From a virus, in IMG/VR virus record IMGVR_UViG_3300009182_000063, positions 1 through 64,000 of that record: a stretch of DNA of 64,000 nt; one strand, written 5' to 3'. Below, one piece after another: positions 947 through 5,805 of this stretch (within the stretch, counting starts at the first letter, position 1; each line of letters begins with the position of its first letter). The notes under the pieces are model-generated. The model worked only from the letters and a program-made list of their open reading frames with translations. It made no database searches and was not told the origin of the DNA. The position numbers and the translations under genes are program-made.

Positions 947-3001
947 TTAGTAGCGTGCATCAATATACTTACTTACGCTTGAGTCTTGATTTCTTGGTGG
1001 AGTTCTAATATCAGTTTTCCCTCCACCATTATTGTTAATTGTTGTTGATGGAGCATTAACAACATTTGTATTGGCACCAGATTTAGCTGTCTTTAATTCT
1101 TCATTGCCTTTAGATGCAGTTTGTAAATTTTCACCACTGCTTGATGGACCAGGAGTTACTGTACTGGCCATTCCTTTCTTTAGACCCTCATTTTGTTTCT
1201 GATCTATCGCACGATCTATCAACTCAAGTTTGCTTTGAAACATTTCTTCTGAATCTGAATCGCCTGGAATTGATGGACCATCTTTTACTGTCTGTTTTTT
1301 AAATTTTTGTAAGTCATCAAGAGACATCTTTTTAATCTCATCAGGTTTGACTTCATCTTTTTTCTTGTCATCTCCGCCACCGAAGAAACCTTTGATTGAT
1401 TTGTATCCTGAGGTAAGTGCACCACCAACTTTTTCTCCGACTTTACTACCACCATAGTATCCTAAAGCACCACCAATCAGACCACCAACAGCAGTACCAA
1501 CGATAGGTACTACTGAACCAATCGCTGCTCCTGCAGCAGCACCAGCAAGAGCACCACCTGCTCCACCGACACCACCTCCAACTGCTTCACCTTTCTTAAC
1601 ATCGGTCTTATCGCTGACTTCTGCTTTCATTTTCTTGGCATCGGCTTCGCTAATCTCACCTTTGGCAACTCTAGCATCAATTGCTTGATTTTGTTCACCC
1701 TCAGCAGCATTCGCATCTTGCCATCCTGAGTATGCTTCGTACGCACCCATACCAACAGCAGCCACTGAACCAAGCAATCTTCCACCGCCACCCTTTAAGA
1801 ATCTTGCTGCTTTACTGCCTAGACTCTTTCCTCCTGCTTTTCCTGCAGCCTTACCACCTTCTTTTCCAGGTAAGTTATCTGCGATATCTAGAGCAGTGTC
1901 AACAACACTTGGACCACCAGCATCTGAACCACCACCAGCACCACCAGACTCTGACATTTTAGTCAAAGCAGCAAGTTGTTGTTTTTGTATGTCTAGGGAA
2001 AGAGCAAGTGTTTTTCCAATTTCGTGTTCAGCATTTACTTGTTCAACATTTCCTTTAATATTTTCTGCTGATACTTTTGAAGATTTTTCTTTTTCTTCTT
2101 CAATTTGTGTATGTGGAACTTCTTTCGATTTAATGTCTATAACATTATTTTCTATTTCTTTCTTAGTAGCTCTGCGAGGTTTAGTTGTAACATCTTTCGC
2201 CTCAACATCTATAACATTATCTTTTATTTCTTTCTTAGTAGCTCTGCGAGGTTTTTTCGTATCTACTGCTGGTTCTTCTTTTATTGCTGCTTGTAATCTT
2301 GTATCAACTTTAACAAGTTCACCAGTTTTTTTGTCTAGATCTTCCTGGTCTTTCTTTAGCGGAGCAAACCCAGCTGCTTTAGCATCTTCAATTTTCTCAT
2401 GCACTTTTGTTACAGCTGCTTCTTTTTCTTTGATTGTGTCGAATCTTTTCTCAGCTTCAGCTTTGGCAATTGCTCTGCCTTCAGGTGTTTTCATTCCACC
2501 AGCGAAGTTTGCTTTTCTTGCATAAATTGTTGGATCATGCTTCATAGCATCTTCAACAAATGCCTTCTTTTCTTCTTTTAATGCTTTTTTATCTTCACGC
2601 TTTTTTAATTGGTTACTAATAAAACCAGTAAATCCAGTAACACTTGTACTTTGAACTTCTTCGTGGCTCTTTCCACCAAGAAGGAACTGTCTGAGCCCAC
2701 TATTTGCTCCAGCACCCTTTGATCTTAGTTCATCATCATTTTTAATTTTATTTCCAACGGCAGCACCGAGACCATTCTTAATTGCTTCTTTAAGTGTGGC
2801 ATTTAACTTAGTTAAACTCTCAGTTACTTGTTCTTCACGTTTCTTTTTAAATTCTTCATCATTTGCTGCTTTAACATTTTGCTCAGATAACTTCTTAACA
2901 TCAAGGGATAAATTTTGAGTTGCCTGTGTATGTACCTGAAGAGCAGACGTATTTTTCTTTGTCTGCTCAGCTTGTATCTTAAGAAGTTCTTGCATTGTCA
3001 T
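947..3001 (-). CDS. Probable tape-measure / baseplate hub protein (gp29-like by position)
   Basis: A 684-residue protein that I assign by architecture and position rather than clear sequence match. The N-terminal half is charged and alpha-helical (Lys/Glu/Ala-rich, coiled-coil-like), with a Lys/Glu segment that includes a duplicated RRATKKEI...NVID motif. Residues roughly 400-560 are Gly/Ala-rich with a hydrophobic glycine-zipper stretch (GGALAGAAAGAAIGSVVPIVG and on), typical of the membrane-active part of tape measures. The C-terminus is Asn/Gly/Ser-rich. It lies directly downstream of the gp26/gp51-like frameshift pair, exactly where tape measures follow their chaperones in many tailed phages. 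Its size fits a tail of about 100 nm (T4 gp29 has 590 residues). The start at ATG 3001 lies one base after the preceding stop. It could instead be another hub protein. Confidence 0.6.
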   Translation of the reverse strand: MTMQELLKIQAEQTKKNTSALQVHTQATQNLSLDVKKLSEQNVKAANDEEFKKKREEQVTESLTKLNATLKEAIKNGLGAAVGNKIKNDDELRSKGAGANSGLRQFLLGGKSHEEVQSTSVTGFTGFISNQLKKREDKKALKEEKKAFVEDAMKHDPTIYARKANFAGGMKTPEGRAIAKAEAEKRFDTIKEKEAAVTKVHEKIEDAKAAGFAPLKKDQEDLDKKTGELVKVDTRLQAAIKEEPAVDTKKPRRATKKEIKDNVIDVEAKDVTTKPRRATKKEIENNVIDIKSKEVPHTQIEEEKEKSSKVSAENIKGNVEQVNAEHEIGKTLALSLDIQKQQLAALTKMSESGGAGGGSDAGGPSVVDTALDIADNLPGKEGGKAAGKAGGKSLGSKAARFLKGGGGRLLGSVAAVGMGAYEAYSGWQDANAAEGEQNQAIDARVAKGEISEADAKKMKAEVSDKTDVKKGEAVGGGVGGAGGALAGAAAGAAIGSVVPIVGTAVGGLIGGALGYYGGSKVGEKVGGALTSGYKSIKGFFGGGDDKKKDEVKPDEIKKMSLDDLQKFKKQTVKDGPSIPGDSDSEEMFQSKLELIDRAIDQKQNEGLKKGMASTVTPGPSSSGENLQTASKGNEELKTAKSGANTNVVNAPSTTINNNGGGKTDIRTPPRNQDSSVSKYIDARY

Positions 3002-3002
3002 G

Positions 3003-3185
3003 TTACTGTTTTCTCTCTAATCTTTGTTTTTCTTCTTCTAAGAATTCAACCAGCAAGGCAACATAAATCTCCCTTTCGAAAGGGATCATATCTTCAATCT
3101 CAGTCAGAGAATATTTGTGATATTGCATCAGGGCGAAGTTGGTTTTATAGTAATTACCCAACGACTCGTGACTGAGATTTACTAA
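3003..3185 (-). CDS. gp51-like chaperone extension, probably made by -1 frameshift from gp26
   Basis: An open frame of 60 codons that lies in the -1 frame of gp26 and starts inside its 3' end. It reads LVNLSHESLGNYYKTNFALM, then QYHKYSLTEIEDMIPFEREI, then a Glu-rich helix ending ERKQ. The DMIPFEREIYV block is what I associate with the small marine gp51-type hub assembly factors. There is no plausible start codon with a ribosome site: the only internal ATG (ATGCAATATCAC) would remove a third of it and lacks a Shine-Dalgarno. The frame joins gp26 exactly at an eight-T run, so the likely product is a 296-residue gp26-gp51 fusion. The tape-measure gene starts one base after its stop. Confidence 0.72.
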   Translation of the reverse strand, partial: LVNLSHESLGNYYKTNFALMQYHKYSLTEIEDMIPFEREIYVALLVEFLEEEKQRLERKQ

Positions 3186-3892
3186 AAAAAACTGGCTGTT
3201 CCCTCCAGAGTTGTTTTATTATGTGCTTTACAAGCAGGACAGTCGTATTCAATATCTTTTTTAAACTTTGGAATACTAACAAAGAACTCTTCAATCTTGT
3301 CGAATTGTTCTTTTGTTAAGTTTAATATAAACTCTTCAAGTTCTTGTCTTGTCTGTTCTTTGGCATAAAACATCTCATCGCCATTGTAAATTGAATCAAT
3401 ACAATCAATTATAACTTCCATAATTGCATTAATATCTTCTTCCATACCTTCTGCCTTGTTAAAGGTGTCAAGATTAGGATAGTGCATAATTACACCACAC
3501 TCATCAAAAAGATGTATTTTATTTGAGTGGGCTGGATCTTTAATAACATCAATAGTAGTTAAATCAATTCCAAGTTTTACTTTATTCTTTTCTTGATCAC
3601 AGTGCATGCAAGTAAAAATTAAGTCAACAGTTTCACCAACTGACTTGGCTCTAATTTGTGTGAACAGATAATCAATATCAAAAATTGCCAAGGAATTAAC
3701 ATTAATTTCTTCTTGAACACAATTAGATATAATTTCTTTTAGTGTGCGTACCATAACTTCAGAGTTTTCGCTCTGCTGCGCAAGTAGTAGTGCTTTTTCT
3801 TCTCTAACCAAAAATGGTCTGAATGATACTTTCTTTTCTGTAGAAGGAATCTTTACAGAGTATAGTGCGGTTTTCATCATAGGTAATGACAT
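3182..3892 (-). CDS. 26: Baseplate hub subunit / tail assembly chaperone gp26
   Basis: A 236-residue protein of the T4 gp26 'T4_baseplate' family (T4 gp26 has 208 residues), needed for hub and tail-tube assembly. It begins with a beta-rich segment (TALYSVKIPSTEKKVSFRPF) followed by REEKALLLAQQS, a hallmark of the family. Two CxxC pairs, Cys95/Cys98 (CMHC) and Cys218/Cys221 (CPAC), should form a zinc ribbon. The start at 3892 has an AAGGAG site 8 bases upstream, inside the end of gp16. The stop TAG follows a T run that looks slippery, and the -1 frame continues into a gp51-like segment, so this protein may exist in short and long forms like the G/GT chaperones of lambda. Confidence 0.85.
   Translation of the reverse strand: MSLPMMKTALYSVKIPSTEKKVSFRPFLVREEKALLLAQQSENSEVMVRTLKEIISNCVQEEINVNSLAIFDIDYLFTQIRAKSVGETVDLIFTCMHCDQEKNKVKLGIDLTTIDVIKDPAHSNKIHLFDECGVIMHYPNLDTFNKAEGMEEDINAIMEVIIDCIDSIYNGDEMFYAKEQTRQELEEFILNLTKEQFDKIEEFFVSIPKFKKDIEYDCPACKAHNKTTLEGTASFF
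3184..3206 (-). promoter_or_regulatory. Probable programmed -1 ribosomal frameshift site
   Basis: Read on the minus strand, gp26 ends AGT TTT TTT TAG. The eight consecutive T (3191-3184) contain an ideal slippery heptamer, T TTT TTT. A strong Shine-Dalgarno-like GGAGGG (3206-3201) lies 9 bases upstream of the run, a distance typical of internal stimulators of -1 shifting such as in dnaX. Slipping back one base bypasses the TAG and enters the gp51-like frame. Confidence 0.72.
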
Positions 3893-3895
3893 AGT

Positions 3896-4312
3896 TCAAT
3901 CTCCTTTATTCATTTTATCGATTAATTTGTTCAATTCACTTGTGCTACCAACAAAGATAGCATTGTTTGTTACATTTTTAGCAGTAACTTTTGGTTCATC
4001 AATTTTCTGTTTCTGTTGATGTAGATCCATCAACTGACTATTGATATCTGCCACCTGTTTCATTAAGTTTCCAACTACCTCAAATGCTCTTGGGTGTTCA
4101 GATTGTTTTGCCACCGCAAGAGCATTTGTTAAAGCATCTTCACCTTTTGTCAACAAGTTTAAAAGATTGGCTCTGGTTTTATCGTAATCAGATTCAATCT
4201 TTTGTTCTTGTGATTCTATAATTTCTCCAGTTTCGGCAACTATCAATTCACCTGTTACCTTTTCAATTGGAGTCATATTAAAGATCTCACTCAAGTTATC
4301 ATCAATTTTCAT
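3896..4312 (-). CDS. 16: Terminase small subunit gp16
   Basis: A 138-residue T4 gp16-type small terminase, which recognises DNA and stimulates the large terminase gp17 during headful packaging. The central block (YDKTRANLLNLLTKGEDALT, then AVAKQSEHPRAFEVVGNLMK) is the conserved helical oligomerisation core of the family. The longer frame from 4375 adds 21 residues that overlap the upstream gene. I choose ATG 4312 (MKIDDNLSEIF) because it lies four bases after the upstream stop and begins the family-like sequence. gp17 is not in this window. The gene is embedded in the tail operon between a membrane protein and gp26. Confidence 0.88.
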   Translation of the reverse strand: MKIDDNLSEIFNMTPIEKVTGELIVAETGEIIESQEQKIESDYDKTRANLLNLLTKGEDALTNALAVAKQSEHPRAFEVVGNLMKQVADINSQLMDLHQQKQKIDEPKVTAKNVTNNAIFVGSTSELNKLIDKMNKGD

Positions 4313-4316
4313 TTTA

Positions 4317-4958
4317 TTATATTGTACCTTCAGAGTCGATTCCATCGCTTCTAGTATTTCTAGTAGGTGGATCATCAGGGTGTAAACCTAAGTCTACTGA
4401 TGGGTTGGCAGCTGTGTTGGTAACTGGCGCAGCCATTGCTGCTGGACTAGTTGCGCCTTGGCTGAAAGGTGCTGGACTTGCTCCGAAACTACCTGCGCCT
4501 GGAGTTGGTGAACTAAAACCACCACCTGCGAATCCTCCTGTTTGAGGTGCGCTAAATGCTGGTGCGCTGCCCATTGGTGAATTGAATCCGACATTTCCTG
4601 CTCCTCCAAATCCACCTGTTGACATACCAGCTCCCATTCCTGATGGAACACCAGTCATATTGGTATTTGTAGTTTGTGTAGTTGCTGTTGGATTAGCAGC
4701 TGTTCCTGCTAATTTTTCTTGAGTGCGACCGAACGCAGCGATACCAAGAACAGCACCCATGGCGATATGGAATAAACCAGCACCTTGAAGTGTTAGTGGA
4801 TTCCACTGCACTAATTGTTGATGTGAAAGAGATTGAATTAATGCCCAAAGAATTGGGAAAATAACCATATCAAAGAAACATACTATCATGTACATCCATC
4901 CCATGGCTGGACGCCATTTCTTTTGCATCCAATCTTCGTCTTTTTTAATTTCTGCCAT
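4317..4958 (-). CDS. Holin-like membrane protein with Gly/Ala/Pro-rich tail
   Basis: A 213-residue protein. After a short charged start (MAEIKKDEDWMQKKWRPAMG) there are two or three hydrophobic segments: YMIVCFFDMVIFPILWALIQ, then a WNPLTLQGAGLFHIAMGAVLGIAAFG-like segment. This arrangement recalls the phage '3TM holin' family, small inner-membrane proteins linked to lysis. The C-terminal 120 residues are low complexity (Gly, Ala, Pro, Ser, Thr), including many GGFGGAG/FSSPTPGAG-like motifs. I start at 4958, which has AAAGGA 8 bases upstream, rather than 4991. It sits between gp54 and gp16, so it could also be a virion-associated membrane protein. No lysozyme gene is beside it. Confidence 0.6.
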   Translation of the reverse strand: MAEIKKDEDWMQKKWRPAMGWMYMIVCFFDMVIFPILWALIQSLSHQQLVQWNPLTLQGAGLFHIAMGAVLGIAAFGRTQEKLAGTAANPTATTQTTNTNMTGVPSGMGAGMSTGGFGGAGNVGFNSPMGSAPAFSAPQTGGFAGGGFSSPTPGAGSFGASPAPFSQGATSPAAMAAPVTNTAANPSVDLGLHPDDPPTRNTRSDGIDSEGTI

Positions 4959-4968
4959 TTTGGTTCCT

Positions 4969-5805
4969 TTAAGAGAAATCGTTCCAAACATCAGTTAAAA
5001 CATTTTGTGTTGTACCACGCAATGTGTTTAACCCCTCATCTCTTTTCGAGTTTATACTTGACATTAAATTCTGTTGAGCATTTGCTTGAAACGAATTAAT
5101 ATCAGAAAAGTATTCCTGTGGTATTTGTTGTATTTTGTAGATATCTGGTTGAATCGCTGCCATTTGATTTAATCCTCTACCAACAGCATCTGCTTGTTGT
5201 ATTGGCTGACCATCTGCGCCTATTTGTTGCGCTGGTTGTAAACCAGATAGCAGAGTATTTTCATTACCAACAGGCGCATCAATTGCTACGTAATTCCAAT
5301 ACTTATACTGTAGAGTTACAGACAGTTTCATAATATCTTTTCCAGCATAATCTAATTGTATTGAACCAACATTTTTTGGCCATACTTCATATAACGTAAC
5401 TTGGTATCTTGATTGATCTAAAGTGTCTTGAACAAGAATCTGCATTTGTTTACATACATACTCATCATAGTATTTAAATGTTCTTTCGTTTCCATTCTGT
5501 ATACTTGTAATCCAATTATCAAACCAAGACTTAACATGCATCTTTTGGTCTACATAAAACGATAGTGTTACTGGTTCATAATTGAACTCTGTAGGTGTTT
5601 CGCGAACCTCTCCAAAAATTCTAATTGGAGTAGCGTTGACTTGTAGTCCAGGAAGAGATGCCTGGTCACAGAATAACAGTAAAGTTTTAAATGGAGTAAT
5701 ACCATTAACTGCTCTTGCAGATGAAGGTATGTCCATAACTACCGAGAACCTATTTGTTCTGGCCATTCCCGATGACATCGACGAAACGAAGTCGCTAATT
5801 TTCAT
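4969..5805 (-). CDS. 54: Baseplate tail-tube initiator gp54
   Basis: A 278-residue protein of the gp54/tail-tube fold family. gp54 sits on the hub with gp48 and nucleates polymerisation of the gp19 tube. Diagnostic segments include an N-terminal TNRFSVVMDIP, CDQASLPGLQVNATPIRIFGE, and the tube-like EPVTLSFYVDQKMHVKSWFDNW followed by VTLYEVWPKNVGSIQLDYA and ITLQYKYWNYV-like strands. The C-terminal 90 residues are Gln/Asn-rich and probably extended. Its ATG overlaps the stop of the preceding gene (ATGA), implying translational coupling. Tube proteins of this family look alike; the position apart from gp18/gp19 supports gp54 over gp19. Confidence 0.82.
   Translation of the reverse strand: MKISDFVSSMSSGMARTNRFSVVMDIPSSARAVNGITPFKTLLLFCDQASLPGLQVNATPIRIFGEVRETPTEFNYEPVTLSFYVDQKMHVKSWFDNWITSIQNGNERTFKYYDEYVCKQMQILVQDTLDQSRYQVTLYEVWPKNVGSIQLDYAGKDIMKLSVTLQYKYWNYVAIDAPVGNENTLLSGLQPAQQIGADGQPIQQADAVGRGLNQMAAIQPDIYKIQQIPQEYFSDINSFQANAQQNLMSSINSKRDEGLNTLRGTTQNVLTDVWNDFS

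Follow-up and report, generated by a model that had tools for sequence, protein, structure and literature searches.

Genes 26 and 51 of T4-like phages as a probable frameshifted pair of tail assembly chaperones

In the 64,000-nucleotide stretch of viral DNA analysed here (the window), gp26 is very probably a short tail assembly chaperone, from which a -1 slip on T_TTT_TTT gives a longer form, gp26-51, in the manner of the lambda G/GT pair. The direct basis of this frameshift reading is sequence, conservation, synonymous-site selection, homology and predicted fold. A broader statement is favoured with less assurance: most T4-like lineages probably have no free 'gp51', only a frameshifted tail of gp26 with a fixed slip site, synonymously selected upstream pairing and stems that vary between lineages, while the T4 branch swapped the slipping gene for short (26) and long (51) copies on opposite strands.

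The proposed mechanism is as follows. The gp26 protein would be the short and abundant form of the chaperone. Pairing between GGAGGG and 16S rRNA, and probably a downstream RNA stem as well, would delay ribosomes, a minority of which would shift back by one base on T_TTT_TTT and translate 60 further codons, yielding a predicted gp26-51 fusion of 296 aa. If lambda G/GT is the guide, the gp26 part common to both forms would coat the tape measure protein encoded by the following gene, with the added tail recruiting the tail tube subunit. T4 and its close relatives would instead encode the two forms separately, in the paralogues 26 (short) and 51 (long).

The junction and its neighbours

The gp26-gp51 junction lies on the minus strand of the window (the initial annotation gave no strand), and its parts are listed in Table 1. 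The initial annotation had described gp26 as ending at an eight-T run, with GGAGGG nine bases upstream and a 60-codon gp51-like extension in the -1 frame, and all of these are present: read 5' to 3' on the minus strand, the 3' end of gp26 is CTG GAG GGA ACA GCC AGT TTT TTT TAG. gp26 passes the curated cut-off of PF12322, the T4 gp26 family, by a wide margin (200.4 bits vs 24.5), and is the only PF12322 gene in the viral record of 64,570 bases, itself possibly a fragment. The -1 frame tail, 62 codons long when counted from the heptamer and 60 after the slip, is matched in a profile search by phrog_634, 'baseplate hub assembly catalyst' (gp51). A second match of the tail is to positions 231-277, at the C-terminal end of the gp26 profile (phrog_150, 1.6e-07), an indication that some phrog_150 members hold both parts in one frame.

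Table 1. Features of the gp26-gp51 locus (window coordinates)
Feature	Position	Strand	Evidence and remarks
gp26 ORF, the short, G-like form of the tail assembly chaperone (very probable)	3182..3892	-	236 aa; PF12322 4e-59, phrog_150 1.1e-62
Shine-Dalgarno-like GGAGGG	3201..3206	-	sequence; 9 nt spacer, then heptamer
Slippery heptamer T_TTT_TTT	3185..3191	-	sequence; stop TAG 3184-3182 directly after; eight T altogether
-1 frame tail, T-like, elsewhere annotated gp51	3003..3191	-	translation; phrog_634 7.6e-27; TAA stop 3005-3003
Possible downstream stem	3096..3179	-	AATCTCAGTCA (3179-3169) pairs with TGACTGAGATT (3106-3096), 11 bp, begins 5 nt after heptamer
Probable tape measure ORF	947..3001	-	684 aa; position and length, partial matches only

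The 684-aa ORF, whose start is one base away from the tail stop, is the probable tape measure, a weak identification: phrog_794 matches it only in part (7.1e-09, over 369-530), and BLAST gave no clear relation to the annotated tape measure of HTVC008M. Among the 78 clusters of relatives described below, a long ORF begins at most 20 nt from the tail stop in 58; partial matches are again the basis for calling it a tape measure. In S-RSM4 (L017:3899-6708) the annotation names a 2OG-Fe(II) oxygenase family protein for the gene that follows the tail in the tape measure position. On the other side of the window locus, a terminase small subunit gene (3896-4375, minus strand; phrog_445 1.1e-39) directly precedes gp26, among tail genes, and a GTA_holin_3TM-like gene (4317-4991, minus strand; PF11351 2.1e-06) lies between it and the tail tube gene.

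Frame, slip site and flanking signals among relatives

Relatives were drawn from viral contigs by peptide patterns excluding the junction, and named phages were added. The resulting 113 sequences (window included) comprise 108 with a gp26 profile match, of which four are truncated and one lacks a tail match, leaving 103 usable loci. In all 103 the tail stands in the -1 frame relative to gp26. A decayed in-frame fusion, or a sequencing error in a gp26-gp51 gene, might be suspected given the in-frame long form of T4, but it is contradicted by this identical frame relation across many phages and assemblies and is hardly credible. An in-frame T_TTT_TTY occurs at the junction in 102 of the 103 loci, the window being one of them; in these the short ORF carries a -1 heptamer at its 3' end and the tail follows in the -1 frame, as in G/GT. 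The site differs from the slippery heptamer of lambda, which is G_GGA_AAG. The T run, Shine-Dalgarno distance and frame, which the initial annotation had named as features to check for conservation, thus recur among the relatives, and the arrangement spans cyanophages, Pelagibacter and Methylophilales phages, Straboviridae such as KVP40 and Aeh1, and others.

The 28 regions taken from annotated records divide into 19 of the slip type, two from Ackermannviridae with no clean heptamer and seven with an in-frame long gene. The slip type is found in S-WAM1, HTVC008M, P-SSM2, S-RSM4, ACG-2014f, pf16, KVP40, phiN3, ACP17, Aeh1, S13, Marzo, VmeM-32, Melnitz-3, Desulfovibrio phage 7757, RHph_N34, XG4, P-HM1 and Syn1, with heptamer variants in RHph_N34 (T_TTT_TTG) and XG4 (T_TTT_TTA). 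The in-frame long gene occurs in T4, RB43, Aeromonas 31, SFHK24, phiP4-3, CPt10 and IME13; in Campylobacter phage CPt10 (L124:1934-2668) it adjoins a terminase gene. The sole locus of the 103 with no heptamer is that of Klebsiella phage FKP10 (Ackermannviridae), where the tail is still in the -1 frame. The second member of this family, phage 1.244.A, has tail-like sequence in the -1 frame, no clean heptamer, and TAATG at the junction. Coupled initiation or another slip site may operate in these two phages.

The 102 heptamer-carrying loci collapse to 78 clusters at 80% identity. Elsewhere in gp26 an in-frame heptamer occurs at none of 14,820 codon positions in these clusters. The first Phe codon of the site is TTT in 78/78 (expected 0.64 per cluster; log10 P -17.7) and the preceding codon ends in T in 78/78 (expected 0.57 per cluster; log10 P -21.5), where P is conditional on the encoded residues and on codon usage nearby, and takes as independent the clusters, themselves drawn from heptamer-carrying loci. 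The frame-0 stop falls at most 13 nt from the heptamer start in 76 of the 78. Run length bears on whether a mixed mRNA arises because RNA polymerase, rather than the ribosome, slips at this site. In favour of this, the window is one of 21 clusters with eight T, but 53 of the 78 have six T only, a short run for transcriptional slippage, and the upstream pairing and downstream folds described next suit the ribosome; polymerase slippage is thus very unlikely.

Stimulators of bacterial -1 frameshifting that pair with rRNA lie about 9-14 nt before the site. In the 78 clusters, predicted anti-Shine-Dalgarno pairing 5-20 nt upstream averages -5.89 kcal/mol, against -4.67 in controls with unchanged amino acids and codons resampled from the gene itself, and none of 2000 control means was as low as observed. 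The strongest pairing windows for the 16S tail are at -17 to -8. The bare Shine-Dalgarno core is not enriched (69/78 clusters vs 86%). An upstream rRNA-pairing element is thus favoured beyond what amino acids and codon use require; in the window its spacer is 9 nt.

Downstream stems in bacterial -1 frameshifting begin 5-8 nt after the heptamer. The window folds at -33 kcal/mol over 3186-3060 (z -3.61); the same 11 pairs recur in L034, and L002-L006 fold similarly. Across the clusters, the RNA that follows the heptamer folds more stably than its synonymous shuffles do (mean z -1.44, sem 0.16), as compared with -0.38 to -0.76 for three control windows in gp26. Helices of at least 9 bp that start at most 10 nt from the site are found in 34/78 clusters vs 357/1560 shuffles, an excess not seen in the control windows. 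No enrichment is seen for helices whose start is exactly 4-8 nt beyond the heptamer (18/78 vs 99/390), which leaves a family-wide fixed stem position unsupported. A single stem common to all lineages is ruled out: at least 9 of the 11 window-type pairs are found in 6/76 clusters, and the P-SSM2 type in 7/76. P-SSM2-like phages have a different stem, and in L077 one of its G-U pairs is swapped for U-A.

The tail could also be made as a separate small protein, gp51 as in cyanophage annotation, translated from a start codon of its own or by ribosomes that reinitiate past the gp26 stop. An ATG does occur among codons 1-15 of the -1 frame in 26/78 clusters, KVP40 has TAATG at the gp26 stop, P-SSM2 has an ATG 2 nt past it, and the gp51 of annotators starts there or further in. 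Independent or coupled initiation beside slippage is therefore possible in those 26 clusters. However, 52/78 clusters have no ATG in these codons and 39/78 no ATG, GTG or TTG, and in 37/78 none of the three is found there or upstream in the open frame. The heptamer is retained even where an ATG exists, the GGAGGG of P-SSM2 is 24 nt from its ATG, and the T4 homologue is an in-frame fusion. A separate tail protein as the general explanation is accordingly improbable, though less so than polymerase slippage. The initial annotation had the tail lacking a start of its own: this holds for ATG in the window, where the first ATG is 21 codons after the heptamer start (with a TTG at codon 10), and for all three codons in the 37 clusters, but is less certain for the 26 with a nearby ATG.

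T4 genes 26 and 51 and the fold of gp26

T4 carries genes 26 and 51 on opposite strands, and no slip site was found at either end. Both proteins match PF12322 along the whole profile (gp26 8.8e-64, gp51 3.9e-52), while the phrog_634 tail is present in gp51 (1.2e-23) and absent from gp26. Judged by these matches, T4 has a short paralogue, gp26, and a long one, gp51, the latter being the in-frame long form. In each of ten viral contigs with a T4-type gp51, a profile search finds a divergent gp26 paralogue adjoining it. RB43 (L025:2501-3794) differs from the divergent pair of T4: its long gp51-like gene is followed in tandem by an ORF that matches the gp26 type weakly (E 0.0028).

In the tree, the eight long copies form one group (100/99), and the short and long copies of the T4 branch fall together (98/97), opposite all 19 slip-type rows. 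The simplest reading is that a single duplication in the T4 branch gave a short and a long gene, which seem to have replaced slippage. Because the short copy of RB43 is a long branch and the tree has no known root, we infer the direction from slippage to duplication rather than read it from the tree. If this is true, the ratio of the two forms in the T4 branch is no longer set by the ribosome.

The AlphaFold2 model of window gp26 (pLDDT 87.7) has, over residues 1-94, its best solved match in the HK97 tail assembly chaperone 2ob9 (Z 7.7, 84 residues), a value in the middling range of the tool's own scale. It is followed by 3fgx (Z 7.7), 3klu (7.1) and 5ir0 (5.3), which we take to be chaperone relatives, and then by a drop to 2.3. 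Foldseek also ranked 2ob9 first, at an E of only 0.63. As modelled, the N-terminal domain is tail-assembly-chaperone-like. Differences from lambda are that gp26 has more elements beyond these first ~90 chaperone-like residues, and that its profile found no chaperone among PDB chain sequences (best E 0.14). The model of a T4-type gp51 has an order of elements much like that of gp26, plus C-terminal helices; against the PDB it matched no chaperone (best Z 5.0, C1QBP), and the fold argument therefore rests on the window gp26.

The initial annotation had proposed a lambda G/GT-type mechanism in a T4-like phage, with gp26 and gp51 as the T4-lineage version of the G/GT pair. This reading is supported by the -1 heptamer survey, the chaperone-like domain of the gp26 model and the short and long paralogues of T4.

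Known systems and significance

The window locus resembles lambda gpG/gpGT, as outlined in a 2016 review (PMC5009743), in its short protein, predicted -1 slip near the 3' end with a tail fused in the -1 frame, and probable tape measure as the next gene. A passage of that review describes G-T frameshifting as widely conserved 'except T4', and the short and long paralogues indicate why T4 looked like an exception. T4 gp26 and gp51, given as hub assembly chaperones in the part of PMC3004832 that concerns them, share family PF12322 with the window gp26, and T4 gp51 carries the same tail, but in T4 they are two opposite-strand genes with no slip site.

Tail assembly chaperones of T4-like phages were identified by Vladimirov, Gautam & Davidson (Virology 2022, 566:9-15), according to the passages that cite this work in PMC10885494 and PMC12846349. 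As there cited, some T4-like phages have one short and one long fused gene (PMC10885494) and the short gene has poly-T signals (PMC12846349). Short and long forms, two genes in some phages and poly-T signals all agree with the present results. By these citing accounts, the core idea is therefore already published; the window phage is a new member and the principle is not new. Set beside that work by the descriptions in the citing papers only, the additions made here are the phage group concerned, a survey of this size, and tests of the signals upstream and downstream of the slip site. The chaperone locus of Vandenendeviridae and Andersonviridae, which are other phage families, is described in PMC12846349 as having a GTTTTT signal, a poly-T -1 site before the tape measure that is likewise conserved over many genomes.

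A very common marine phage gene appears to be routinely misannotated, the gp51 ORF being missing (as in the S-WAM1, Aeh1, S13 and VmeM-32 records) or arbitrarily started in many entries. T4 gp26 and gp51, termed hub assembly factors of unclear action in that part of PMC3004832, gain a role that can be tested: if the reading is true, gp51, an essential hub factor of T4 long unexplained, would be a GT-like linker of tape measure and tube. Overall, a single regulatory device persists in most lineages, and in one it seems to have given way to gene duplication.
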